Source of the DNA: an uncultured Bacteroidales bacterium | GTDB taxonomy: Bacteria > Bacteroidota > Bacteroidia > Bacteroidales > Muribaculaceae | Reading direction: 5' to 3' | Length of the DNA: 51,950 nucleotides | Assembly (NCBI GenBank): GCA_902787185.1 | Contig: CADAFP010000013.1 | Location: 1-51,950, forward strand | In this document: piece after piece, positions 86-43,214 of the stretch | Layout of the letters: each line of letters starts with the position of its first letter | Numbering within the stretch: the first letter of the stretch is position 1 | The notes under the pieces: model-generated | Databases searched by the model: none | Seen by the model: the letters and a program-made list of their open reading frames with translations, nothing else | Told to the model about the DNA's origin: nothing | Made by a program: the position numbers and the translations under genes

Positions 86-1390
86 TCAGGACGATACATT
101 ATTCTTGAAATATGCGGAAATAGCATATAATGGGACATTTTCCATCCACCCTTCGTCACGGTAAGGTTTCATGGATACCCTTACACCCTTGAATTCCGGA
201 TGGTGATTAATGAATGTTCGAAACGACTTGGACTTCACATTTATTGTGGCTTTGACCTCTATAGGGATTATCCGCTCATCGGTTTGTACTACAAAATCTA
301 TCTCCACTTGAGAGTCATTCTTGCTGAAATATCCTATGGGCATACCCATCGGGACAAGTTGAGAATAGACATACTGCTCGGTAAATGCGCCCTTATATTC
401 CTCAAATACATCGTCACCCACCAATACCTTACCGGCAGGAACACCAATTTGAGCGCCAAGCAAACCCACATCAAGCATGAAAAGCTTGAAAACATTTTGT
501 TCCTGATAAAATTTGATGGGCATACTTGCTTTGTTGATTCGGTGAGCCCTGTAAACAAGGCCTGCATCGATTAACCACTCAATAGCGACAGAAAACTCTT
601 TGGCTCGGCCTCCATGCTTGAGTTCAGTATATTGAAATTTCTTATTCTCTTTGGCCAATTGATGAGGGATACTATCCCAAACGAGTTGTATGCGGGGAAC
701 TTCTCGCGACTCTGGATGCTTGGAGAAATCCATCTGATAATCGTTCAGAATCTGTTTTTGAAGTTCTCTCACCTCATTAGGACCCGCTCCAGCTATATAC
801 TCACTTACTACCCCAGGCATACCACCAACGAAATAGTACTGCCTAAGCAATTCAACAAAAACAGATGGGACAGCATTAATAGTTTCCCAATCGCGTTCAT
901 GCAAGGCTTTTACTAACACATCTTTTCCCAATGCCAGCAGAAACTCCTCAAAATCCATGGGATAAAGATTCAACGTTTCCACTTTGCCTACAGGAAACGA
1001 AACGCTTTGATGCAAACTGATTCCCAAAAGCGAACCCGCTACCGCTATATGAAATTGTGGGGCATCCTCACAAAAGTACTTGAGAGCGGTCAAAGCGCGA
1101 GGGAATTCCTGAATTTCATCAAGTATAATCAGTGTTGTGTTAGGCTGAATATCAACCCCTGACGCTGCAGATATTGCCCTTATCAGACGCGACGTATCAT
1201 AGTCGATGAAAATCTGCTCAAGATTATCCTGCTTTTCACAGTTGATGTAAGCCACTGACTGGTATTCAGTTTCACCAAAATGTTGCAGCAACCAAGTCTT
1301 CCCCACCTGGCGCGCTCCATGCAAGATGAGCGGTTTTCGGTTCTTTTTTTTCTTCCACTCTTTTAAATCATTGATTAACAGTCTTTTCAT
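86..1390 (-). CDS. AAA-family ATPase with C-terminal DUF4143 domain
   Basis: A 434-residue protein. The Walker A motif GARQVGKT lies at residues 25-32, Walker B (LIILDEIQ) near 87-94, and the C-terminal DUF4143 domain carries a PD-(D/E)XK-like signature (VEIDFVV, then IPIEVKA), so a nuclease-like fold is expected after the ATPase. The family is abundant in Bacteroidetes and anaerobes, and its cellular role is unknown. The frame is open upstream to 2167, but that part is only the antisense of the acyltransferase gene. I place the start at ATG 1390 because a TAATTTTG promoter box lies at 1426-1433, giving a leader of about 30 nt. Three repeats with 33-bp spacing surround that promoter. A second, divergent member of the family lies at 7683-8831. 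Confidence 0.88.
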   Translation of the reverse strand: MKRLLINDLKEWKKKKNRKPLILHGARQVGKTWLLQHFGETEYQSVAYINCEKQDNLEQIFIDYDTSRLIRAISAASGVDIQPNTTLIILDEIQEFPRALTALKYFCEDAPQFHIAVAGSLLGISLHQSVSFPVGKVETLNLYPMDFEEFLLALGKDVLVKALHERDWETINAVPSVFVELLRQYYFVGGMPGVVSEYIAGAGPNEVRELQKQILNDYQMDFSKHPESREVPRIQLVWDSIPHQLAKENKKFQYTELKHGGRAKEFSVAIEWLIDAGLVYRAHRINKASMPIKFYQEQNVFKLFMLDVGLLGAQIGVPAGKVLVGDDVFEEYKGAFTEQYVYSQLVPMGMPIGYFSKNDSQVEIDFVVQTDERIIPIEVKATINVKSKSFRTFINHHPEFKGVRVSMKPYRDEGWMENVPLYAISAYFKNNVSS

Positions 1391-1400
1391 TTCAGAATCG

Positions 1401-1484
1401 CATTTTTTATGACGAATATTTGCCACAAAATTACATTTTTCTTGACGAATAAACAATACAATTGAACACTTTTCTTGACTTATC
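1401..1484. repeat. Three direct repeats, 33-bp period, around the ATPase promoter
   Basis: Similar 18-bp units begin at 1401, 1434 and 1467 (consensus catttttcttgacgaata on the plus strand). Units 1 and 2 match at 16 of 18 positions; unit 3 is weaker, at about 13 of 18. Unit 2 fills the space between the -33 and -7 boxes, unit 1 lies in the leader and unit 3 lies upstream. This is the layout expected of an operator. Confidence 0.7.
1426..1456 (-). promoter_or_regulatory. Promoter of the first DUF4143 ATPase
   Basis: Read on the minus strand, TTG (1456-1454) is followed after 20 bp by TAATTTTG (1433-1426), matching the Bacteroidetes -33/-7 consensus. The predicted transcript start is near 1419. 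Confidence 0.65.
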
Positions 1485-1551
1485 GCTGCTGATATTGCGT
1501 CAAAACTGCTTTTCCTGATTGACACGAACCGTCTTTTCGGCAAAAAAGTCT

Positions 1552-1559
1552 TACCTTTG
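1552..1559 (+). promoter_or_regulatory. -7 box TACCTTTG, leaderless arrangement
   Basis: A perfect TAnnTTTG box ends only five bases before the ATG of the acyltransferase gene (1565). No convincing -33 element is seen. The transcript would have little or no leader. Confidence 0.6.
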
Positions 1560-1564
1560 CAGCC

Positions 1565-2611
1565 ATGACGGAGACCGGCCATATCGCTCACCAAGGCACA
1601 ACGCAGCGCATCGGGTATATCGATGCGTTGCGGGGCTTCACCATGTTTCTGGTGGTGCTGGAGCATGTGGCGTCGTTGTGTTGGGGCATCGTGGGCAAGG
1701 GCATCTCCATCCACGATTACCTGGTGCAGGTGAGGATGCCGCTGTTCTTCTTCATCAGCGGCTTTGTGCTGTACAAGCCGGGCGTGGTGTGGAACACGGG
1801 GCACATCGTGCGGTTTTTCAAGAAGAAGATTCCCGTGCAGCTGCTCAGCCCACTGCTGTTCTTGGTCATCTTCCTGCACGTCAAGGGCGTACCCCTGTGG
1901 GACGGGCTGATGGACAAATACAAGGCGGGCTACTGGTTCACGCTGGCCTTGCTGGAATTCTTCGTCATCTATGCCGCGGTGCGGTTTGTCGTGCGGCAAT
2001 GGTGGTCGAGCATCGTGCTTGTCGCCATCGGGGTCCTTCTGTATTGGCTCTGTTGGCCGTCGATGACCACGGGCAACCAGACCATCGACAACGGGCTGAT
2101 GCTGCTGAGCGTTCACCAGTGGCGATTCTTCATCTTCCTGGTGCTGGGCACGCTGGTACGCGAGCATTTTGACGTGGTGCAGCGGTGGCTCGACGGCAAG
2201 TGGCTGGTGGCGGCGTGCGTCGTGTTTTACCTCGTGGTCAATGCCTTGGGCGACGTGCTGCCTGTTCGCGCCATCGCCATGCGCGGACTGCTGTCACTGG
2301 CAGGGCTGGTCGTGGTGTTCACGTTCTTCCGCAGCAAGCAGGCGTTGTTCTCACGCGAGACCGCATTGGGGCGCACGATGCAGTATGTGGGTCGTCGCAC
2401 CCTCGACATCTACCTCATCCACTACTTCCTGATTCCCATGCAGTTAAACTTCGTCACCGTGTTCACCGACCACCCGATGCCCGTCATCGAGGCCACGGTG
2501 TCGTCGATCATTGCCATCGTCATCATCGCCGCCAGCCTGCTCGTGAGCGAAATCATCAGGCTCAGCCCCTGGCTGGCGCACTGGCTCTTCGGCGCCAAGT
2601 ACCGTAATTGA
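1565..2611 (+). CDS. Acyltransferase 3 family membrane protein
   Basis: A 348-residue integral membrane protein with the N-terminal acyltransferase-3 signature (RIGYIDALRGFTMF, then LEHV near residue 33) followed by about ten hydrophobic helices. Members transfer acetyl or other acyl groups onto extracytoplasmic sugars or glycolipids; the acceptor cannot be told from this sequence. The ATG at 1565 follows a TACCTTTG promoter box by five bases, so the gene has its own promoter and probably a leaderless message. The following putative porin gene is on the same strand, 88 bp away, separated by two competing hairpins, so co-transcription is doubtful. GC-rich codon use is like the core genes in the window. 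Confidence 0.87.
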   Translation: MTETGHIAHQGTTQRIGYIDALRGFTMFLVVLEHVASLCWGIVGKGISIHDYLVQVRMPLFFFISGFVLYKPGVVWNTGHIVRFFKKKIPVQLLSPLLFLVIFLHVKGVPLWDGLMDKYKAGYWFTLALLEFFVIYAAVRFVVRQWWSSIVLVAIGVLLYWLCWPSMTTGNQTIDNGLMLLSVHQWRFFIFLVLGTLVREHFDVVQRWLDGKWLVAACVVFYLVVNALGDVLPVRAIAMRGLLSLAGLVVVFTFFRSKQALFSRETALGRTMQYVGRRTLDIYLIHYFLIPMQLNFVTVFTDHPMPVIEATVSSIIAIVIIAASLLVSEIIRLSPWLAHWLFGAKYRN

Positions 2612-2620
2612 ACTGCAAAT

Positions 2621-2670
2621 CATGCGAATTACACCCGCGATTGAATAATTCGCATGATTCGTGTAATTCG
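2621..2670 (+). terminator. Two mutually exclusive hairpins between acyltransferase and porin genes
   Basis: The segment 2621-2631 pairs perfectly over 11 bp with 2646-2656. The overlapping segment 2625-2634 pairs perfectly over 10 bp with 2661-2670. Both cannot form together. This is either a terminator for the upstream gene or a switch just ahead of the porin promoter. There is no long T run. Confidence 0.45.
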
Positions 2671-2686
2671 TCGTTTGAAAAATTAT

Positions 2687-2694
2687 TACCTTTG
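2687..2694 (+). promoter_or_regulatory. -7 box TACCTTTG before the porin gene
   Basis: A perfect TAnnTTTG box sits five bases before the GTG start at 2700, the same spacing as at the acyltransferase gene. It implies a leaderless transcript. Confidence 0.6.
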
Positions 2695-2699
2695 CATCC

Positions 2700-4706
2700 G
2701 TGAAAAAGATATTGACCATACTGGTTTTGATGCTAACGGCAGCGATGTGTATTCCCACTATCGCCCAAATGCCGTCGCAGAGCAGCAGCAAGACCACCAA
2801 GGTCAAGAAACAACGTGTGGAGCCGTCGGTGGCATGGAGCGTGAGCGAGCCGCTGGGACTGCATTACCCCTCGACCATCGACACCATCCACCTGGACTAC
2901 CACCTGACGATGGTGCCCACGGGCGTGAGCGACGCTTGGCTCACGACGGGCAACTATGGCGCGCCGGGACAGAACCAGATCTTCATGGAACGCCCGCTGG
3001 CCAGCAAGTTCTTCTTTGAGGACGCCATCGAGGCATGGATGCACAACACGGCGACGATGCGCTACTACAACACGCGCATCCCCATGACGCTGCTCAGCCA
3101 CTCGACCGGCGGCGACAAATACAGTAACCTGGACCGCACCAAGTTTGAATTCTCGGGCAACGTGGACCGCAAGACGCAGGTGGGCGCAGGGTTGGACTAC
3201 ATCTACAGCAAGGGCTCCTATGACGCTCAGGCCGACAAGGACTTCACCTGGCGCCTGTTCGGTTCCCACATGGGCGACCGCTATGAGATGCAGACCTTCT
3301 TCAACCACTACAACTACACCACCAAGGAGAGCGGCGGCATCACCGACGACCGCTACATCACCGACCCTGCCGAGGTGCAAGGCGGCGAGACCAAAGTCGA
3401 TAACAAGAGCATCCCCACCCTGCTGAGCAACGCCCACAGCCACCTCGAGGGCAGCCAGCTGTGGCTCAACCAGCGCTACAAGGTGGGATTCTACCGCTAC
3501 CGCCGCGACAGCGTCACCGACACCATCATCGACCGCACCTACGTGCCGGTGACGAGTTTCATCTGGACGCTCGACTTCAAGCACGGCAAGCACCAGTTTC
3601 TGAACAGCATCGCCAGCCAGGACCAAAGCTTCTTTGACTACACCTACCTGTCATTGAACGGCACCAGTGACGAGACGAGCTACTGGCGCCTGCGCAACAC
3701 CGTCGGCGTGTCGATGCTCGAGGGCTTTAACAAGTACGCCAAATTTGGTTTCTCGGTCTATGGCACCCACGAGGTGAGACGTTACACCCAGGCCATCGAC
3801 ACCGTCTCGGGCACTGTCCTGCCCGATGGACTGGAGGCCTTGCCCGCCATAGTGCCGCACCGCGTGACACAGAACCTGCTGTGGGTGGGCGGACAACTCA
3901 CCAAGCAACGCGGCTCGGTGCTGCGCTATAACGCCACGGCACAATTCGGCGTGCTGGGCGAGGCGGCAGGCGAGGTGGACCTGACAGGCGACCTGGTCAC
4001 CCGCTTCAGGATGCTGGGCGACACGGTGAGCATCAGGGGCTATAGCTACTTCAAGAACCTGGCGGTGCCTTATCTGTTGAAACACTACGTCTCTAACCAC
4101 TATGCGTGGGAGAACGACTTCAGCAAGACCAAGCGCGTGCGCGTGGGCGGGGAGTTGGACATCCCCCACTCGTGGACCAACATCAACGTGGGTTACGAGA
4201 CCTTGAACGATTACATCTATTGGGACGCAAACGGCCTCCCCGCCCAGCACAGCGGCGCCATCCATGTGCTGAGTGCCCGACTGCGTCAGGGCCTGCACTT
4301 CAAGGCCTTCAACTGGGACAACAGCGTGACACTGCAGACGAGCAGTAACGAGCAGGTGCTGCCGCTGCCCAAATTCGCCGTCTACAGCAACCTGTATGCC
4401 ACCTTCATCATTGCCCACGTGCTGCATGTGCAGATGGGCGTTGACTGCAACTACTACACCAAGTACTACGCCCCCGCCTATAATCCCGCGACGATGACCT
4501 TCCACGGCCAGCAGGAGCAGGAGTGCGGCAACTTCGCCCTGATGAACCTGTATGCTAACTTCAGGATGAAGCAGGCCCGCTTCTTTGTCGCCTGGAACCA
4601 TTTCAACCAGAAATTCAAGGGCGGCACCGCCTACTTCGCCACCCCGCACTACCCGCTGAACCCAGCCCGCCTGCAAGTCGGTGTCTCGGTCAACTTCGTG
4701 AACTAG
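2700..4706 (+). CDS. Putative outer-membrane porin (Bacteroidetes putative porin family)
   Basis: A 668-residue protein starting at GTG 2700, the only start that agrees with the TACCTTTG box at 2687-2694. An N-terminal signal peptide (MKKILTILVLMLTAA) ends near residue 22. The rest is rich in aromatic-alternating strands typical of a beta barrel and ends in SVNFVN, as expected for a final barrel strand. Architecture and length fit the Bacteroidetes putative-porin family (PF14121 type); the substrate is unknown. Its last five codons are duplicated 1.4 kb downstream (6116-6130) at the far side of an AT-rich island, suggesting that something inserted at the 3' end of this gene and separated it from its terminator. 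Confidence 0.8.
   Translation: MKKILTILVLMLTAAMCIPTIAQMPSQSSSKTTKVKKQRVEPSVAWSVSEPLGLHYPSTIDTIHLDYHLTMVPTGVSDAWLTTGNYGAPGQNQIFMERPLASKFFFEDAIEAWMHNTATMRYYNTRIPMTLLSHSTGGDKYSNLDRTKFEFSGNVDRKTQVGAGLDYIYSKGSYDAQADKDFTWRLFGSHMGDRYEMQTFFNHYNYTTKESGGITDDRYITDPAEVQGGETKVDNKSIPTLLSNAHSHLEGSQLWLNQRYKVGFYRYRRDSVTDTIIDRTYVPVTSFIWTLDFKHGKHQFLNSIASQDQSFFDYTYLSLNGTSDETSYWRLRNTVGVSMLEGFNKYAKFGFSVYGTHEVRRYTQAIDTVSGTVLPDGLEALPAIVPHRVTQNLLWVGGQLTKQRGSVLRYNATAQFGVLGEAAGEVDLTGDLVTRFRMLGDTVSIRGYSYFKNLAVPYLLKHYVSNHYAWENDFSKTKRVRVGGELDIPHSWTNINVGYETLNDYIYWDANGLPAQHSGAIHVLSARLRQGLHFKAFNWDNSVTLQTSSNEQVLPLPKFAVYSNLYATFIIAHVLHVQMGVDCNYYTKYYAPAYNPATMTFHGQQEQECGNFALMNLYANFRMKQARFFVAWNHFNQKFKGGTAYFATPHYPLNPARLQVGVSVNFVN
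4688..4702 (+). repeat. Left copy of 15-bp direct repeat flanking the AT-rich island
   Basis: The sequence ggtcaacttcgtgaa at the end of the porin gene recurs exactly at 6116-6130. In both places it is read as VNFV just before a stop codon. Confidence 0.75.
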
Positions 4707-4803
4707 ATACTTTATAAAAGTCATAAACTATAAAATATAACAAAAAAAATAGAAAAAAACAGAAAAAAAGCAACGAAACTTATAAAATTTGAAAATAAAA
4801 TAG

Positions 4804-4811
4804 TATTTTTG
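4804..4811 (+). promoter_or_regulatory. -7 box TATTTTTG for the island genes
   Basis: A TAnnTTTG match 19 bases upstream of the ATG at 4831, in an A-rich stretch. No -33 box is visible at the usual distance. Confidence 0.5.
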
Positions 4812-4830
4812 CAGACTAAATATATAAACG

Positions 4831-5271
4831 ATGAATTTAGATAACGAAATAATACATAAAAAAGAGGTACCTTTATTACATGCCTTGTTGTGGGCAATAG
4901 CTCTTTTTTTGGGCTATACTTGTTCTAATATATGGCCAGAAAAGATTATAATGGAATTAATGGCTGTTTTTATAGTTTTTGTGGTTTTTTTATGGGAAAC
5001 AGCGATAATTTTTTTGGATATAAAGAGTCGTTATCCCAAAAAGAACTTTGTGGGCAATATATTTGGTCTTAATGCGCGTCTATTCTTCATTATACCTATT
5101 CCTTTTGTTTTAGGGGCTATCTATAAAAAATTAGATTTGATTATCTGTTTTTATTTGGCTCTATTTTCAATGGTTTGGTTAAAGTGGGAAATTGCGTCAT
5201 TTGCCAATAACATCGAATCTTATTTGGTTGACATTAAACCAGAAATCTATCCAAATAATTTTAATCAATAA
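4831..5271 (+). CDS. Unrecognised small membrane protein (about four TM helices)
   Basis: A 146-residue protein with four hydrophobic segments, roughly at residues 12-32, 40-62, 80-98 and 102-122, and short charged ends, so it is an inner-membrane protein. I do not recognise the family. Base composition is much more AT-rich than the neighbouring porin and aminotransferase genes. It is followed after 11 bp by the gene at 5283, and a single promoter box lies upstream, so the two form an operon. Both lie within an island bounded by a 15-bp direct repeat, which points to acquisition from elsewhere. A partnership with the membrane-anchored S24-like protein downstream is inferred only from this arrangement. 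Confidence 0.75.
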   Translation: MNLDNEIIHKKEVPLLHALLWAIALFLGYTCSNIWPEKIIMELMAVFIVFVVFLWETAIIFLDIKSRYPKKNFVGNIFGLNARLFFIIPIPFVLGAIYKKLDLIICFYLALFSMVWLKWEIASFANNIESYLVDIKPEIYPNNFNQ

Positions 5272-5282
5272 AGCGCTCTCTT

Positions 5283-6080
5283 ATGATTACCATAAATGCA
5301 GGAACACCTCTCTTAATTAATAGTATCCCTCTTTTCCCATCGCTAGTCGCAGGGGTGGGGATAGCATATTTTGGTTGGACTTTTTATAAAGCCAATAAAA
5401 GAGTAAATGAGTATCGACAAAAAGTTCAACGAGACATAATAAATCAATCAGTAAAGGTCATTCCTCAAAAAGATTATTATCTAGCTTGTGCTGGGAGTAA
5501 TGAAGATTGCACCGATGAGAAAGTTCGCAAGATTGATGTGGACTTGTGTAATTTCTGCGATCACAACAAAAAGCCGCTTGATGTCTCATTATATGATTGT
5601 TATGTCGTTCAAGGAGATTCCATGAAATATGCAGGCATAAATGATGGAGATATCTTGTTTGTCCCAAAAGATTTTAAATTGGAAACTCTTACAACATTTC
5701 CTGTTATTTTAGTTCTGAGATACGGGAATTGTCACGAGGAAAAAGCAAAATATAAAGTCCGTAGAACATGGTTCAAAGGCTCATACAAAAATTTAGAGGA
5801 TAAAGCAAAAGAGATTATTAAAACCCCTAAATTCAGAAAACTTACTCTACAATCCGGATTTAAGGGAGAGGAGTGGATGCTGGAGGATTTAAAGAACAAA
5901 CGATTGAAGAAGTATATGAAAAAATATTCTGTAGATGGTATTATACCAAAAGAATATGACGAAGTAATTCTTTCAACGACTTATGATACAAAATACAAAG
6001 AGATTCACTTCTCTATACATCCAATATCTTTAATTGTTGGAAATGTTGAAGAATGTTATACAGTTGATATAGAAAATTAA
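5283..6080 (+). CDS. Membrane-anchored protein with S24/LexA-type peptidase-like domain
   Basis: A 265-residue protein with one N-terminal transmembrane segment (about residues 15-32) followed by a basic stretch. It then has a cysteine cluster (C-x6-C, then CNFC about 12 residues on) and a segment VVQGDSMKYAG..DGD. That segment matches the serine nucleophile region of S24/S26 peptidases such as LexA and UmuD. A candidate catalytic lysine occurs in KYKVRR, 43-45 residues after the serine. Soluble LexA relatives carry a DNA-binding domain in front; here it is replaced by a membrane anchor. I cannot assign a substrate. The partner gene 11 bp upstream also encodes a membrane protein. The AT-rich composition marks both as recent arrivals. 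Confidence 0.7.
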   Translation: MITINAGTPLLINSIPLFPSLVAGVGIAYFGWTFYKANKRVNEYRQKVQRDIINQSVKVIPQKDYYLACAGSNEDCTDEKVRKIDVDLCNFCDHNKKPLDVSLYDCYVVQGDSMKYAGINDGDILFVPKDFKLETLTTFPVILVLRYGNCHEEKAKYKVRRTWFKGSYKNLEDKAKEIIKTPKFRKLTLQSGFKGEEWMLEDLKNKRLKKYMKKYSVDGIIPKEYDEVILSTTYDTKYKEIHFSIHPISLIVGNVEECYTVDIEN

Positions 6081-6115
6081 TAGGTATAACGCACACATTT
6101 TAAGAAGATTACCTT

Positions 6116-6130
6116 GGTCAACTTCGTGAA
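6116..6130 (+). repeat. Right copy of 15-bp direct repeat flanking the AT-rich island
   Basis: Identical to 4688-4702. In the frame acc ttg gtc aac ttc gtg aaa taa it reads TLVNFVK then stop, resembling the end of the porin gene. It is followed by a hairpin that would be the natural terminator of that gene. Confidence 0.75.
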
Positions 6131-6168
6131 ATAAAAAACACTAATTAAGCAAGACTAAAAGATAAGAA

Positions 6169-6248
6169 GAATACAATAAACACAATAAATTCAAGCTATT
6201 AATAATCAACCGCTTGCACTTCTTGTATTTATTGTATTCGTTGTTTTC
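6169..6248. terminator. Large AT-rich inverted repeat, member of a dispersed pair
   Basis: Positions 6169-6185 pair with 6223-6239 (16 of 17 bp). The left arm matches the left arm of the hairpin at 16189-16259 at 22 of 26 positions, and the right arms match at 23 of 26. It probably ended the porin transcript before the island arrived. Confidence 0.55.
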
Positions 6249-6272
6249 AGTTGATATCCTGCATTTACATAA

Positions 6273-6302
6273 TTGTTGTTTTGGAAAAAAACAGTACCTT
6301 TG
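6273..6302 (+). promoter_or_regulatory. Promoter of the aminotransferase gene
   Basis: TTG (6273-6275), 19 bp, then TACCTTTG (6295-6302). The leader to ATG 6360 is about 50 nt. Confidence 0.65.
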
Positions 6303-6359
6303 TCGGCTGAAAATTAAACTTCAAATATCATTATCAACCAATAACAAGAAAAAAGGATT

Positions 6360-7448
6360 ATGCCTAAATTATCAGATCGCAGCGTGAAGATGCCGGCATC
6401 GCCCATCCGCAAGCTGGCTCCGTTTGCCGCTGAAGCAAAAAAACGCGGTATCAAAGTGTATCACCTGAACATCGGTCAGCCCGACCTGCACACCCCCGAG
6501 GAAGGTCTTGAGGCCCTCAAGCATGTGGACCGCAAGGTGCTGGAATACAGCCCCTCGCAGGGCTATCCCGCCTATGTGGAGAAGCTGGTTGGCTACTACA
6601 AGCGCTATGACATCGACCTGAATGTTGACGACATCATCGTCACCTGCGGTGGCAGTGAGGCCGTGCAGATGGCATTCATGGTGTGCTTGAACCCCGGTGA
6701 CGAGGTGATCATCCCCGAGCCTGCCTATGCCAACTACATGGGCTTTGCCTGCGAGACCGGTGCCAACCCCAACAACCCCACCGGCACCCTGTACAGCCGC
6801 GAGGAGCTGATGCGCCTGCGTGACCTGGTGAAGAAATATGACCTGTTCCTGTTTGCCGACGAGGTATATCGCGAGTTCATCTACAGCGATGCGCCCTACA
6901 CCAGCGCCATGCACCTCGAGGGCATCGAGAACAACGTGATTATGATTGACAGTGTGTCGAAGCGCTACAGCGAGTGCGGTATCCGCATCGGCGCCTTCAT
7001 CACCCGCAACAAGGAAGTGCGCGCTGCCGCCATGAAACTGGCTCAGGCCCGTCTGAGTCCTCCCCTGCTCGGCCAGATCGTTGCCGAGGCATCGCTCGAC
7101 GCTCCGCAGTCCTACCACAAGGGCGTCTATGACGAGTACATCGCTCGCCGCAACTGCCTGGTGGAGGGTCTGAACAAGATTCCCGGCGTCTTCACCCCGA
7201 TGCCCATGGGCGCCTTCTACACCGTTGCCAAACTGCCGGTGAAGGATATCGACGACTTCTGCCGCTGGTGTCTGGAAGAGTTCAACTACGAGGGCGAGAC
7301 CGTGATGATGGCACCTGCCAGCGGTTTCTATGCTACCCCCGGTCTGGGCAAGGACCAGGTGCGCATGGCCTACGTACTGAAGATTGAAGACCTGAAGCGC
7401 GCCCTTGTCATCCTCGAGAAAGCCCTCGAGGCCTACAATGCCCGTTAA
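6360..7448 (+). CDS. PLP-dependent class I/II aminotransferase with an internal deletion
   Basis: A 362-residue fold-type-I aminotransferase. The visible parts are the N-terminal substrate segment (NIGQPDLHTP), the GGSEA turn at 98-102, NPNNPTG at 136-142, D167-E-V-Y170, the PLP lysine K201 in DSVSKRYSECG, and a C-terminal domain ending AYNAR. From memory, the close family in Bacteroides is about 397 residues. About 35 residues that normally separate the PAYANY segment from NPNNPTG are missing, with the join after residue 135 (near base 6764) and the frame kept. The lost piece includes a core strand of the large domain, so activity is doubtful. The gene has its own promoter and a strong terminator (7518-7550). 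Its substrate cannot be read from sequence. Confidence 0.88.
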   Translation: MPKLSDRSVKMPASPIRKLAPFAAEAKKRGIKVYHLNIGQPDLHTPEEGLEALKHVDRKVLEYSPSQGYPAYVEKLVGYYKRYDIDLNVDDIIVTCGGSEAVQMAFMVCLNPGDEVIIPEPAYANYMGFACETGANPNNPTGTLYSREELMRLRDLVKKYDLFLFADEVYREFIYSDAPYTSAMHLEGIENNVIMIDSVSKRYSECGIRIGAFITRNKEVRAAAMKLAQARLSPPLLGQIVAEASLDAPQSYHKGVYDEYIARRNCLVEGLNKIPGVFTPMPMGAFYTVAKLPVKDIDDFCRWCLEEFNYEGETVMMAPASGFYATPGLGKDQVRMAYVLKIEDLKRALVILEKALEAYNAR

Positions 7449-7636: not shown

Positions 7637-7667
7637 TTGCTTATTTCCACCATAGTCTTTACCTTTG
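7637..7667 (+). promoter_or_regulatory. Promoter of the second DUF4143 ATPase
   Basis: TTG (7637-7639), 20 bp, TACCTTTG (7660-7667). A possible TTG start at 7665 lies inside this box and is therefore excluded as the translation start. Confidence 0.7.
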
Positions 7668-7682
7668 CCATCACAAAAAATC

Positions 7683-8831
7683 ATGACTATGCTTGAACGG
7701 ATATTAAAACTTGAGGAAATCAAGGAGGACAGTCTGTTTCTGTGGGGTTCAAGGCAGACAGGGAAAAGCACGTTATTAAAAATGCTTTTCCCAAAAGCAC
7801 ATGTTTATGACCTCTTGAAGAGTGATACGCGTATGGAACTGCAGATACGCCCTGCATTGCTCCGCGAGGAATGTGAGTTACTTGATGACGGCGAATTAGT
7901 TATCATCGATGAGGTGCAGAAGGTGCCCGCATTGCTAGACGAGGTGCATTGGCTCATCGAGAATAAGGGGCTGAGATTTATCCTTAGCGGCTCCAGTGCC
8001 CGCAAATTGAGGCGAAGCGGTGCCAACTTGCTTGGTGGCAGAGCATTACGTCAGGTCTTATATCCACTCGTGAGTGCCGAGATTCCCGACTTTGACCTTA
8101 ACCGAGCGCTAAACAACGGTATGTTGCCGCGTCACTACTTGGTTGAGAACCCATCGATGAGGATTCAAGCCTATATCGGAGACTATTTACAGCAGGAAAT
8201 TGTAGAGGAGGCCATCGTCCGCAGGTTGGATTCCTTTACCCGCTTCCTGCAGGTCGCCGCGCTGAGCAACAGTGAGATTGTCAACTACACCAATATCGCT
8301 CAAGAATGCGGTATTTCTTCCAAGACGGTCAAAGAATATTTCACGATTCTCGAAGAAACCATGCTGGGCTTCTATCTGCCGTCTTTCACTAAGGTCATCA
8401 AGCGCAGAGTCATCCAGTCACCCAAATTCTATTACTTTGATGTGGCCATCCCCAACCATTTGTTAAAACGGGTGCCCTTGCAACCTGGCACCGACATCTA
8501 CGGTCACGCACTTGAGCATTTCGTCATTCAAGAATTGAGGGCTTATCTCTCCTATCGACATACGGGCAAATCCCTTTCATATTGGCACACGATGGACAAC
8601 AAATATGAGGTGGATGCCGTCATCGGACAAGCCGAAGCAGGCATTGAAGTGAAATCGTCCAAAACCATCACCTCCAGCGACACTAAAGGCCTAAAAGCCT
8701 TCGGTGAAGAATACCCAAACGCAAAACTATTCTTGCTCTCGATGGAAGAACGCCCCCGCAAACAAGGCAACATCGAGATCTGGCCCGTCGAGCAATTCCT
8801 AAAACACCTTTGGGCAGATAAAATCATCTAA
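7683..8831 (+). CDS. AAA-family ATPase with C-terminal DUF4143 domain (second copy)
   Basis: A 382-residue protein with Walker A GSRQTGKS (22-29), Walker B LVIIDEVQ (about 73-80), a sensor-like LSGSSARK, and a C-terminal DUF4143 domain with a PD-(D/E)XK-type pattern (YEVDAVIG, then GIEVKSSK). The family is widespread in anaerobes, and its role is unknown. It differs strongly in sequence from the copy at 86-1390, so it is not a recent duplicate. I choose ATG 7683 (ATG 7689 is also possible), 15 bp after the promoter box. Two palindromic repeats upstream suggest specific regulation. The gene is followed by a possible gene remnant and the convergent FRG gene, within a region of mixed composition. 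Confidence 0.87.
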   Translation: MTMLERILKLEEIKEDSLFLWGSRQTGKSTLLKMLFPKAHVYDLLKSDTRMELQIRPALLREECELLDDGELVIIDEVQKVPALLDEVHWLIENKGLRFILSGSSARKLRRSGANLLGGRALRQVLYPLVSAEIPDFDLNRALNNGMLPRHYLVENPSMRIQAYIGDYLQQEIVEEAIVRRLDSFTRFLQVAALSNSEIVNYTNIAQECGISSKTVKEYFTILEETMLGFYLPSFTKVIKRRVIQSPKFYYFDVAIPNHLLKRVPLQPGTDIYGHALEHFVIQELRAYLSYRHTGKSLSYWHTMDNKYEVDAVIGQAEAGIEVKSSKTITSSDTKGLKAFGEEYPNAKLFLLSMEERPRKQGNIEIWPVEQFLKHLWADKII

Positions 8832-8836
8832 CCACA

Positions 8837-8996
8837 AACTTCAAAATCGCACGCATCATTGCCGACCTCGAAGGCCATTTGAAACAACAGAACTTTCTGG
8901 CTATTCTGATTGGCATCCTCACACGCCACTGTCGACGGACTCGACCACCACATTATGGGAGCCTCGACCTCGGTGGTCACATTGATTATTATTTAA
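8837..8996 (+). pseudogene. Possible remnant of an unidentified coding sequence
   Basis: Downstream of the ATPase, one frame reads about 25 plausible residues (KIARIIADLEG, then FLAILIGIL). A neighbouring frame continues it (TVDGLDHHIMG, then a hydrophobic tail) to TAA at 8994-8996. One +1 shift near 8918 would join them. This looks like a decayed C-terminus without a surviving start, but chance cannot be excluded. Confidence 0.3.
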
Positions 8997-10063
8997 ATAC
9001 CCGTCTCAGTTTTCTTAGATTCTCTATACTTCTTGTTCTTCTCCTTACTATGAATCTCAGAGTGTTCTTTTAGAAATTTTGCAACACCAACATAACCAGG
9101 GAACATGGTTGAAGCATTATAACCTATTCTTTCTACAAAAGAATATATTTCATATGCAGTATCTTGTGGGATAGTAATTTGATAAAGGATGGGGACCTCA
9201 GTTGCTTTATTTTCTCTCAAATAAGAATCAAGTAAAACATCAAGTGATTTTCTATTTGTAATTTGCTTGACACAAGCCTTAAAATTTGGCTTTCCTTCCT
9301 TATCTAACACACCAGGATAATCACTCTCCCAAAATGTGAGCATTCCTTTTTGAGCACAAAGATTATCATTATCATGATATCTAGGCTGTATTATATGTAA
9401 TGGTATTTTGGGGTTATATATAACTAGATTTGTTCTCAAGGCCCATATTTCCAAATTGTGTTTTGGAGAATAATTATCACCTTCTCTAAATGCCGCGAAA
9501 GCCTTAAGTAGGTGATTTTTTTCCTTCGAATCATAATAAACACCCTTGGTTGCAAAGTACAAGGCAACATAGATATCATGAGTCCAATCTAGTAAACGTG
9601 TTTTGACACCATAGTGTTGGGCAAGAGCTGCTAACTCCCAGTACTTTTTAGGAATCCATTTCGACTTACAAAATAATGTTTCAGCGTCAACACCTGGAAA
9701 TAATGAATTACGAAGCGATTCTACATGAGGAATATACAAGCCGCAAGTGTCGCAAACACGATAGAAATCTTGGAGCAAATTATACTCTTGTAGAATCTGA
9801 GCAAACTCAGTTTGAGCTAAAGAATCGAATAAATATCTCTCGTCAGCAGAATTCAATTTATTAGAATTGACGGTATCTTGAACAAGGTTTCCTCTGAGAG
9901 CAGTTGGAATCAATTCATACTCATCAGTTGAATGTCCACGATATATATATTGTTTATCGAACAAATTATATAACTCTCCCTTATATGAGATGGCTTTTAA
10001 AAAATCATCTGCATTTTCATAATGGATGGTCTTGATATATGGAGAATCTTGTATGTGTAGCAT
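8993..10063 (-). CDS. FRG-domain protein
   Basis: A 356-residue protein with the FRG domain: YIYRGHS around residues 39-45 supplies the name-giving F/Y-R-G, and LAQHYG (about 146-151) with TRLLDW (154-159) is the second conserved block. No signal peptide or membrane segment is seen, so it should be cytoplasmic. FRG domains occur widely in accessory regions and next to defence genes; no biochemical activity is firmly established for them. The gene is AT-rich compared with the core genes. It lies 9 bp downstream of a 53-residue ORF on the same strand, and both share a promoter box (10262-10269) preceded by three 11-bp-spaced repeats. This is a plausible two-component accessory module, possibly defensive. 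Confidence 0.8.
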   Translation of the reverse strand: MLHIQDSPYIKTIHYENADDFLKAISYKGELYNLFDKQYIYRGHSTDEYELIPTALRGNLVQDTVNSNKLNSADERYLFDSLAQTEFAQILQEYNLLQDFYRVCDTCGLYIPHVESLRNSLFPGVDAETLFCKSKWIPKKYWELAALAQHYGVKTRLLDWTHDIYVALYFATKGVYYDSKEKNHLLKAFAAFREGDNYSPKHNLEIWALRTNLVIYNPKIPLHIIQPRYHDNDNLCAQKGMLTFWESDYPGVLDKEGKPNFKACVKQITNRKSLDVLLDSYLRENKATEVPILYQITIPQDTAYEIYSFVERIGYNASTMFPGYVGVAKFLKEHSEIHSKEKNKKYRESKKTETGI

Positions 10064-22106: not shown

Positions 22107-23849
22107 TCACTTGCGGATAATTTGGCCAATTTTGCTGGTCAGATTGGGTCCCAACACTTTTCGCGCCATTTGCTTAATCGAGCCTTCGCTATCAATCAAT
22201 GAATTACGCAACAACTTGATAGCATCACTCTCATCGTCAGAGTCTGTAAACACCTCAAAAACGACAGGACGGTCTTTTGCCTCAGGGGCAAAGAATTTAG
22301 CGGCGGATGCCTTGTACTCTTCCTTGTTGGATGCACTCATATACTCATATCCCAAATCACTGGCAAAGTGCTTAACCAAATTTGGAGACTTAAAGCCAAA
22401 ATGCCCAGCTGCCGCCATAAAGGGGTCGCCATCTTCGCCAAACCGTGAAGCGGGATGGTCGAAATTATGGAACTCTGTGCCACGGCCGTTATTGATGAGC
22501 ATAATGCGCACATTCTTACCCACATGCCTATTACCCAGCACGTTCAAGTCATAGAAGAACGCCAAGTCGCCCACAACCGCAAAGCACAATCTGTCAGGAT
22601 CGACCAGTGATGCCCCGATAAGCGTGGACACATCACCATCAATGCCAAAGCCGCCCACATTGCATGCAGTCTTCACGCCCTTGGGCAAATCAAAATAATT
22701 CCAGCAACGCAATGAGTTCAAGATGCCCACGTGCAGGATCGAGCCTTCAGGAATCATCGGTGCGCTCTGCTTGGCAATCCAAACGTTAGAGAAGGGGAAC
22801 TCCGGCAATATCTCAAGTGCCTGATTGTTACACTTGCGACAAGTTTCAAGATAGCCGGTCTTGTTGCCATCACCAACGGCATAATGACGGAAGAACGTGA
22901 TTTCCTCCATTTCAAAAACTATGCGCAAGCGTTTGAACCGATCCCTGATTTCCCCGTCAGGACTCACGCGCCACAATGCATCGGGGACAAGCGCATCCAT
23001 TGAGTAATCTCCACTGACCTCACCAATGTGAATCATCAAATTTGGACGTATGGGCTCTTTACCCCAGTTGAATTGAGAGGCCAACAGTGCCGCATGGAAC
23101 TCATACTTACCATGATACCCACTGGTGACATCACAAAAGACTACCGCATCATGAACAGCACAGAAGGCATCTACGGCCTCGGTCAATTCTTTGCTGAAAG
23201 GCTGATGAGCACCCACAAAGATGCCGATTTTGCCTTTTTCGGGCAACTTCGGGAATTCTTCATGTGGCATAATGCGACGAATCCTGCGCGCGGGAGGCAA
23301 CTCACGCAGCGAGAAATCCTTATTATAAGATGTCTCAAGGTTGATATGGACAGGGCCTCCACCATGACGGCTCAATGCGAGCAACGCCTTGTTCACCCTG
23401 ATCTCGCAATCCCACACCTGTTCAGAATCCCGAGGAATGGGTAACAGCAAACTCTCCACAACGGTATCGGCCTGCTGCCGTGACCTATCGATTACCTGAG
23501 GAACAAGATGCCCCACCTTCACTGGATTTTGGGTTGACGTCACGGCTAATACAGGCAACTTACGGTAATGGGCCTCGGTTAATCCCGAGATGTAATTCCT
23601 TGATGCGGTGGCGCCAGTGCAACTTAGCACAACAGGCTCCCCTGTTTCGCTGGCAATACCACATGCCATATAGGCTGCCGAACGCTCATCAACCGAAGAG
23701 AACACCTTAAAAAACGGATCGCACTGAACACTGGCCACAAAATTGATGTTAGTTGTACCAGGAGATGCTATTACATATTTAATTCCGTAGGCTTTGAGCA
23801 GTGCCACCAATATCTGCACATTTCGCTCAGCAGAATAAAACTTATCCAT
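22107..23849 (-). CDS. MenD-like thiamine-diphosphate-dependent enzyme
   Basis: A 580-residue ThDP enzyme. The N-terminal domain has IASPGTTN (MenD has SPGSRN) and the cofactor-activating glutamate in VDERSAAYMACG. The C-terminal domain has the ThDP/metal motif GDLAFF...INNGRG. The overall arrangement is that of MenD (SEPHCHC synthase), but other menaquinone genes are absent, and the gene closes a three-gene operon after a flippase and an SDR. A role decarboxylating a 2-keto acid and adding the product to a sugar or other precursor for a surface polymer is more likely than quinone synthesis. It begins 12 bp after the SDR gene. Substrate is unknown. Confidence 0.82.
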   Translation of the reverse strand: MDKFYSAERNVQILVALLKAYGIKYVIASPGTTNINFVASVQCDPFFKVFSSVDERSAAYMACGIASETGEPVVLSCTGATASRNYISGLTEAHYRKLPVLAVTSTQNPVKVGHLVPQVIDRSRQQADTVVESLLLPIPRDSEQVWDCEIRVNKALLALSRHGGGPVHINLETSYNKDFSLRELPPARRIRRIMPHEEFPKLPEKGKIGIFVGAHQPFSKELTEAVDAFCAVHDAVVFCDVTSGYHGKYEFHAALLASQFNWGKEPIRPNLMIHIGEVSGDYSMDALVPDALWRVSPDGEIRDRFKRLRIVFEMEEITFFRHYAVGDGNKTGYLETCRKCNNQALEILPEFPFSNVWIAKQSAPMIPEGSILHVGILNSLRCWNYFDLPKGVKTACNVGGFGIDGDVSTLIGASLVDPDRLCFAVVGDLAFFYDLNVLGNRHVGKNVRIMLINNGRGTEFHNFDHPASRFGEDGDPFMAAAGHFGFKSPNLVKHFASDLGYEYMSASNKEEYKASAAKFFAPEAKDRPVVFEVFTDSDDESDAIKLLRNSLIDSEGSIKQMARKVLGPNLTSKIGQIIRK

Positions 23850-42549: not shown

Positions 42550-43214
42550 TCTATATAGTTACACTTGATGCAACGCTTGCCGAACTCATAGGTCACTGAC
42601 AGCATCGCGAACGAGTACCAATCGGTGTTCTTGCCAAACTTGTGCTTGATGCCGAACAAGTCGCTGTAACCGTCGATGCGGTCACTGAACTCCTTGCGCA
42701 TGGTGAACTCGAAGCCCAAGTTAAGGCGGTCCTTATACTTGTATTTCACACCGATGCCGATAGGGATGGTGAACGAGGCCTGGTTATGGCCGTTGCTCAT
42801 GGCAAACACAAAGCCGACACCAGCGACCATATAGGGCGAGATGGGCTTGTATTTCTTGTACATGGGGCCGCGGCCAAAGTTCAGGAAGTTGAACTCGGCA
42901 GTCAGGCCCATATCTATCAGGTGGGAAGAGAAGACGTAATTGGCGCCATCGGGAAACCATGTCTCATCATACATGCTGTGTCCCCTGATGTTGGCATAGT
43001 TGAGATTGGCCTTGAATGCCCAACGGCTGTTGTGGGCATAACGGAAAATCACACCGCCGGTCACGCTGGGGCGCTCAAACAGGTGATCAAAGTTACAATC
43101 GCCCAAATAGCCAGTCATACCGATCACGGGACCCACCTCATACTTGTACTGCTGTGCCGACGCCGTGAACAGCGCCAGCAGTGACAGTAACGTTATGGAC
43201 AGGATTCTCTTCAT
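42546..43214 (-). CDS. DUF6089 family outer-membrane protein
   Basis: A 222-residue protein with a signal peptide (to about 20), [16 protein letters not shown], and alternating strands that form a small beta barrel ([40 protein letters not shown]), ending just after [13 protein letters not shown]6089 genes typically sit directly upstream of uppS and bamA in Bacteroidetes, as here, and the stop overlaps the uppS start. A role in outer-membrane assembly is inferred from this position. Function is unknown. Confidence 0.87.

Follow-up and report, generated by a model that had tools for sequence, protein, structure and literature searches.

Small defence-like genes seem to move to the 3′ end of a porin gene without a visible moving enzyme in a gut bacterium and its relatives

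How does a pair of small genes without a recognisable recombinase come to lie between a porin gene and the gene that natively follows it? The question is raised by positions 1 to 51,950 of contig CADAFP010000013.1 from an uncultured Bacteroidales bacterium (family Muribaculaceae; assembly GCA_902787185.1, here G000), the stretch of 51,950 nucleotides that we call the window. An intact porin gene of the Porin_10 family (2700..4706, plus strand; PF14121, E = 1.3e-178), with orthologues in 96 of the 101 genomes of the genus, ends there in GGTCAACTTCGTGAACTAG and is followed by an AT-rich insert (4707..6115) that contains genes A (4831..5271, plus strand) and B (5283..6080, plus strand). Fifteen bases of the porin end, GGTCAACTTCGTGAA, are present in two exact copies on the plus strand, one within the last codons of the porin (4688..4702) and the other directly behind the insert (6116..6130). 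Comparison with relatives confirmed that the insertion and the repeat in the window are real; empty sites exist, and other defence-candidate genes are likewise placed at the porin and at other genes. With a probability of about 0.55, slightly better than even, we consider A and B to be a small passenger, devoid of a recombinase, that inserted between the porin stop codon and the native spacer with a long, variable target duplication.

The evidence for the insertion comes from the DNA behind the porin, which was taken for 94 of the 96 genomes with a porin match, namely 39 close loci (window included) and 55 more distant ones; the other two, G008 and G085, were not in the set of longer stretches. 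Several of these stretches reach the contig end soon after the porin, so that a far copy could go unnoticed there. An aminotransferase gene, which in the window occupies 6360..7448 (plus strand; PF00155), lies within reach behind the porin in 21 close relatives, and in 8 of these it follows the porin stop after 163-265 bp with no insert, identifying it as the native downstream neighbour. Among these empty relatives is G006, the sister of the window on the porin tree (support 86/83), in which the aminotransferase begins 174 bp behind the porin stop; G006 and the seven others contain a single copy of the porin-end target. The relatives without the island that the first-pass annotation of this locus had anticipated were thus found. 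In the window, the same two genes are 1653 bp apart, a distance that falls to 225 bp once one repeat unit of 1428 bp is subtracted. In one of the 21 relatives, G002 (L077), the stretch starts behind the porin on another contig. As a separate observation, made by eye, the gap between the porin and the aminotransferase holds REP-associated transposase-like genes in G025, G007 and G002.

Within the window, the insert differs sharply in composition from its surroundings, with a guanine-cytosine content of 0.309, compared to 0.593 in the porin and 0.586 in the aminotransferase gene. Dinucleotide shuffling of 4707-6360, repeated 2000 times, gave exact matches of at most 12 nt to the last 26 nt of the porin, such that the 15-bp direct repeat reported by the first-pass annotation exceeds the shuffle expectation. 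When up to two mismatches are allowed, GGTCAACTTCGTGAA has two further sites, 23241-23255 and 42880-42894 (minus strand). The two copies were said to read identically, as VNFV plus a stop, but copy 1 translates as VNFVN-stop and copy 2 as VNFVK-stop, and the match ends 4 nt before the porin stop. Copy 2 is probably the original end of the porin, given that the spacer behind it (6131..6359) can be aligned with the spacers of relatives, most clearly across the aminotransferase promoter. A palindrome in this spacer, at 6169-6239, had been taken for the porin terminator; it belongs to a dispersed repeat that recurs on at least two further contigs of the genome (C8 and C15), rather than being a terminator specific to the porin gene, and, as judged by eye, it does not directly follow the porin in the empty sister G006, where it had been expected.

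Other genes lie at the porin 3′ end in related species. When the DNA downstream of the porin was scanned at the 94 loci for exact recurrences of its end, 14 nt or longer, five loci were positive: the window (15 nt), G102 (30), G026 (43), G098 (44) and G106 (42 + 15). To these are added G002, where the repeat (62 nt, exact) spans two contigs, and G114, whose weak repeat contains three mismatches. All seven carriers belong to the 39 close loci, and none of the 55 distant loci was positive in the scan, in which, as in the nearest-end comparison described below, the porin end of two loci (L040 and L049) was placed 15 nt short, an error corrected in the tree. In the five clear relatives (G102, G026, G106, G098 and G002), the copy is 36-62 nt long, and its match ends within 2 nt of the stop (0 in G102, G026 and G106, -1 in G098, +1 in G002). 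The cargo varies: a DUF1016 nuclease in G102 (408 residues), G098 (409 residues) and G002 (in two pieces); an MNT-HEPN pair in G026, with the HEPN stop directly abutting the far copy; and about 95 bp of spacer in G106. Moreover, what lies behind the far copy in G002 and G098 corresponds in sequence to what lies behind the porin stop in the insert-free G117 and G070. A nuclease encoded by the cargo was considered as a general mover and rejected because the MNT-HEPN pair, A and B, and the G106 insert, which was judged nuclease-free from its length, show no nuclease family other than the HEPN domain itself.

Comparable arrangements are seen at genes other than the porin. The aminotransferase gene of G102 has its end repeated (34 of 36 nt) about 1.4 kb further on, downstream of a gene for an ATPase similar, by eye, to the one at 7665-8831 of the window; after this far copy comes the terminator that, in empty relatives, is found behind the aminotransferase. 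The same genome contains a 499-codon gene (by eye, a CoA transferase) of which the last 45 nt, the stop and about 110 bp beyond it are duplicated around an AAA_14 gene. In G113, Vsr and DUF1016 genes are flanked by gene-end copies, 93 bp exact and longer with mismatches, and no methylase was seen. In G035, imperfect gene-end copies flank a DUF1016 gene followed by a helix-turn-helix gene with an 85-residue neighbour, and a partial copy of 21 nt lies behind the DUF1016 gene, an arrangement that looks like stepwise insertion. An MNT-HEPN pair is flanked by terminator copies in G073 (31 bp exact in about 44) and by intergenic copies of about 52 bp in G034. Away from the porin, duplications of about 110-155 bp thus occur. 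Of 39 passenger loci (30 DUF1016, 9 HEPN), 8 have an exact repeat that is 15 nt or longer; three of these belong to the porin cases described above, and that of G090 (25 bp) resembles a shared promoter. On the side, L164 has two successive passengers behind one gene end (1375-3600), with a partial and a full end copy behind each, as if inserted stepwise, and other Bacteroidales DUF1016 genes have flanking repeats of 493 bp (L204), 153 bp (L221) and 131 bp (L180).

We further assessed how far such repeats stand out. Among 80 named DUF1016 loci, 17 show the gene enclosed by a repeat of 24 nt or more, and, in a strict test that counts only repeats of at least 35 nt hugging the gene, 5 of the 72 testable DUF1016 open reading frames were positive, as opposed to 2 of 179 others. 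A gene-end scan of the 1781 open frames in 852 kb (G000 and G102) gave 22 matches, many in spurious frames; among the 20 matches listed, one was judged a real gene end, the AAA_14 case of G102. Gene-end copies around passengers are in modest excess, strongest at the porin. Among the open-licence papers that the literature searches listed, none was seen from its title or the start of its abstract to describe such gene-end duplication for DUF1016, DUF4143 or HEPN genes.

The origin of the copies speaks to how they arose. When the far copies were compared with the 94 porin ends, four of the seven were nearest to the porin of their own genome: G002 (61/62), G026 (43/43), G098 (44/45) and G106 (57/58). 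The near and far copies are nearly identical within each of these four genomes. The far copy of G102 is tied (36/37), and that of G114 is nearer to the porin of another species. The carriers are scattered on the porin tree, and DUF1016 is present in one member only of the pairs G002-G117 (support 100/96), G102-G109 (96/88) and, with weak support, G098-G070 (95/34).

Species-own duplications of varying length fit a repair or replication process that leaves the target, copies a passenger and returns upstream. Insertion would take place during break repair or replication: a growing strand would jump to the passenger and return to the target slightly upstream of its departure point, so that the gene end would be copied twice. 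The own end of the porin would be duplicated on the far side of the passenger, with 15 recognisable bases in the window and 36-62 in relatives. The spot behind the porin gene may be tolerated, and perhaps transcribed, and the repeats may permit clean loss of the passenger. The clustering at the porin stop suggests some targeting and leaves room for a trans-acting enzyme.

What the passenger of the window encodes can be described in part. Gene A, preceded by the promoter-like sequence TAnnTTTG (4804..4811, plus strand), the pattern known as the Bacteroides-type promoter consensus, encodes a 146-residue membrane protein with four hydrophobic segments and a weak helical model with a mean predicted local distance difference test score (pLDDT) of 62. 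Gene B encodes a 265-residue protein with one N-terminal hydrophobic segment followed by basic residues, the remainder of which is probably cytosolic, anchored by this segment. That the AT-rich island consists of these two genes holds, and B looks S24-like, as previously labelled, but its match to Peptidase_S24 (E = 4e-4, 20.5 bits) lies under the Pfam cut-off of 23.3. Searches of A and B against Pfam, NCBIfam, PADLOC and PHROGs revealed no recognisable recombinase, and neither protein matches any PADLOC model; together with the empty sites, these searches bear out the proposal that a recombinase-less insert entered at the 3′ end of the porin gene and left it intact. An Ala-Gly pair, a Ser and a Lys in that order make up the self-cleavage arrangement of LexA and UmuD, and the corresponding residues of B (A70-G71, S113, K158) are invariant across three B homologues, an alignment of three rows only in which the identity to the window protein is 24-29%. 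Unlike LexA and UmuD, B has an N-terminal membrane segment in place of a DNA-binding domain. Comparison of B with solved structures gave weak matches (E 0.03-0.7), signal peptidase being best (E = 0.034), followed by LexA and UmuD. To judge from these features, B looks like a membrane-tethered self-cleaving protein of the LexA/UmuD type beside a four-segment membrane protein. We propose that B would control A, forming a damage- or phage-triggered switch.

Relatives of the pair are few. Among the 101 genomes of the genus, A matches only G000, and B matches G000 plus one weak hit at 23%; no B homologue was found in the genome_contigs, viral_contigs, plasmids and phages collections. The 393 genomes of the order hold one B homologue (G339, 30% identity, E = 1.4e-4), located between rpsJ and rplC (neighbours named by eye), with a membrane-protein partner that begins 5 nt behind the rpsJ stop. 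The suggestion that the same pair would recur at other gene 3′ ends is thus borne out for a remote B homologue and its placement, but not for A, which shows no significant similarity to the G339 membrane protein in the same position, or for the repeat. A profile of both B proteins detected a third homologue, in G358 (L258), upstream of an AbiH gene from which it is separated by small hydrophobic frames; this protein lacks the N-terminal hydrophobic segment. A phylum-wide search with the B profile matched 41 of 395 genomes, mostly with short and weak hits.

Several observations weigh against insertion with target duplication as the origin of the island, or against the role suggested for B. In 12 of the 21 relatives, the gap between the porin and the aminotransferase is 331-7533 bp and mostly holds other genes, mostly without a porin-end repeat (L062 and L046 have one and L052 a weak one), which indicates that this gap is variable in general. 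The repeat in the window is the shortest of the set, with no match upstream of its 15 bp, and its far copy resembles the porin of its own genome (18/21) no more closely than those of others (19). At the porin site of G032, an interrupted DUF1016 gene lacks a second copy, and no gene-end copy was detected at the rpsJ locus of G339. Repeats of at least 24 nt are common as such, 140 having been found in the 852 kb, many of those listed lying in tandem paralogues, and 21 of the 80 DUF1016 loci have such repeats placed elsewhere. Furthermore, the nucleotide identity of DUF1016 among its four carriers (82-91%) resembles that of the porins (83-88%), so that long residence with exchange or gene conversion is possible. 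Finally, the S24 match of B is below threshold, and its single-sequence structural model is poor (mean pLDDT 36).

The alternative that survives best, although we regard it as rather unlikely, is site-specific recombination catalysed by a trans-acting enzyme, with the porin 3′ end serving as the attachment site and the passengers being non-autonomous circles that bear a copy of it, so that integration restores the gene. The duplication ends of the five clear relatives, all of them within 2 nt of the stop, the presence of several different passengers at one site, and their lack of an enzyme of their own are all compatible with this scheme. Tyrosine-recombinase integrative elements insert at gene 3′ ends, keep the gene intact and leave direct repeats, and the same three features are seen here; unlike in those elements, the insert contains no recombinase and the repeat length varies. 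As to an attachment arm brought in by the element, far and near copies are both species-own in four of the seven cases, G102 is tied, and the window and G114 are nearer to other species. The varying copy length and these four species-own far copies weigh against a trans-acting enzyme, as do other genes, where the copied stretch extends some 110 bp beyond the stop or sits in a terminator. On these grounds, the analogy to integrative elements drawn in the first-pass annotation is not supported. No candidate enzyme was identified, none having been searched for. A broader possibility, which we put forward tentatively and consider comparably improbable, is that Bacteroidales have a general enzyme-directed route that places solitary defence genes behind stop codons with the own gene end copied beyond them, the porin 3′ end being a preferred dock and A and B a new defence switch in which a membrane-tethered, LexA-like self-cleaving protease guards a membrane effector.

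Two further explanations appear very unlikely. Uptake of DNA from a related strain, where one junction would form by recombination within the shared porin and the other by illegitimate joining a few tens of bases ahead of the recipient porin end, would account without an enzyme for a copy that ends at the stop, if the porin of the donor already had the passenger behind it, and for the same DUF1016 gene at this site in four species. Under this scenario, however, copy 1 should be donor-like, yet copies 1 and 2 are nearly identical in G002, G026, G098 and G106, and the first insertion is left unexplained. Similarly doubtful is a scheme in which each passenger inserted once in an ancestor and was then inherited, with frequent loss, while gene conversion kept the copies alike; it draws on the near-equal divergence of DUF1016 and the porins. 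Against it stand the scatter of the carriers and the three tree pairs with DUF1016 in a single member, the stretch between DUF1016 and the far copy, which differs in sequence and length among the carriers, and the DUF1016 genes of G098 and G002, which are more similar (90.9%) than the respective porins (84.4%); in view of the copy origins, divergence and tree scatter, a single ancestral DUF1016 insertion is disfavoured. That the second copy is due to chance or is the remnant of a lost second porin is scarcely credible, despite its mere 15 bp and the missing porin match upstream of it: none of the 2000 shuffles reached 13 nt, five relatives have longer copies at the same place, and a search for the porin end in the 22 stretches that reach the aminotransferase flagged no second porin in the gap, only short gene-end copies.

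With insertion accompanied by target duplication as the preferred explanation, the closest precedent is the insertion with long target duplication that was reportedly described for restriction-modification genes by Nobusato et al. in 2000. Passages of several papers describe restriction-modification genes that insert without a transposase and with long, variable target duplications, recognised by comparison of related genomes (PMC3874152, PMC1643837, PMC3031569, PMC3154945), the duplications being of the order of 100 bp in one account (PMC3874152). By analogy, the movement seen here would be a variant of a known, little-studied kind. As in those cases, there is no transposase or integrase of the insert's own, and an empty-site relative has one copy of the target; the duplication is long and variable in the relatives, with 36-62 nt at the porin and about 110-155 bp at other genes, but only 15 bp in the window. 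Unlike in those cases, the cargo is not restriction-modification genes but DUF1016, MNT-HEPN, an AAA_14 ATPase or A and B, the porin duplications end at the stop, and at least six species share the use of a single gene end. If integron gene cassettes are taken for comparison, the repeats here are copies of the end of the host gene. Some passengers match candidate models of PADLOC, which are candidates only: PDC-S02 for DUF1016, PDC-S09 for the MNT protein and PDC-S01 for the DUF4143 ATPase of the window; like A and B, the HEPN protein matches none.

The surroundings of the island include other genes of possible interest. The aminotransferase of the window is 36 residues shorter in frame than that of G006 (362 versus 398 residues; the other compared relatives are of similar length to the latter), and the missing residues include part of the region ahead of the NPNNPTG motif, reflecting either a real deletion or an assembly error. 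Beside this gene are two solitary PADLOC candidates, the DUF4143 ATPase at 7665-8831 (plus strand; PDC-S01) and an FRG-domain protein at 8993-10063 (minus strand; PDC-S15). On the other side of the porin, the frame at 86-2167 (minus strand) was judged by eye to encode an AAA_14/DUF4143-like ATPase.

The locus is of wider interest for the question of how small defence genes travel in the absence of transposases. The present analysis extends the pattern known from restriction-modification genes to single-gene defence candidates and an MNT-HEPN pair. At a single site, passengers of several kinds, sisters without an insert and target copies of the species' own sequence occur side by side, which makes the insertion dissectable by strain comparison, and a passenger gene with the last tens of bases of the upstream gene repeated behind it provides a search key. 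A and B would represent an undescribed two-gene system, in which B keeps the self-cleavage residues of a DNA-damage regulator at a predicted membrane location. In this gut bacterium and its relatives, small defence-like genes seem to move to the 3′ end of the porin gene without a visible moving enzyme.

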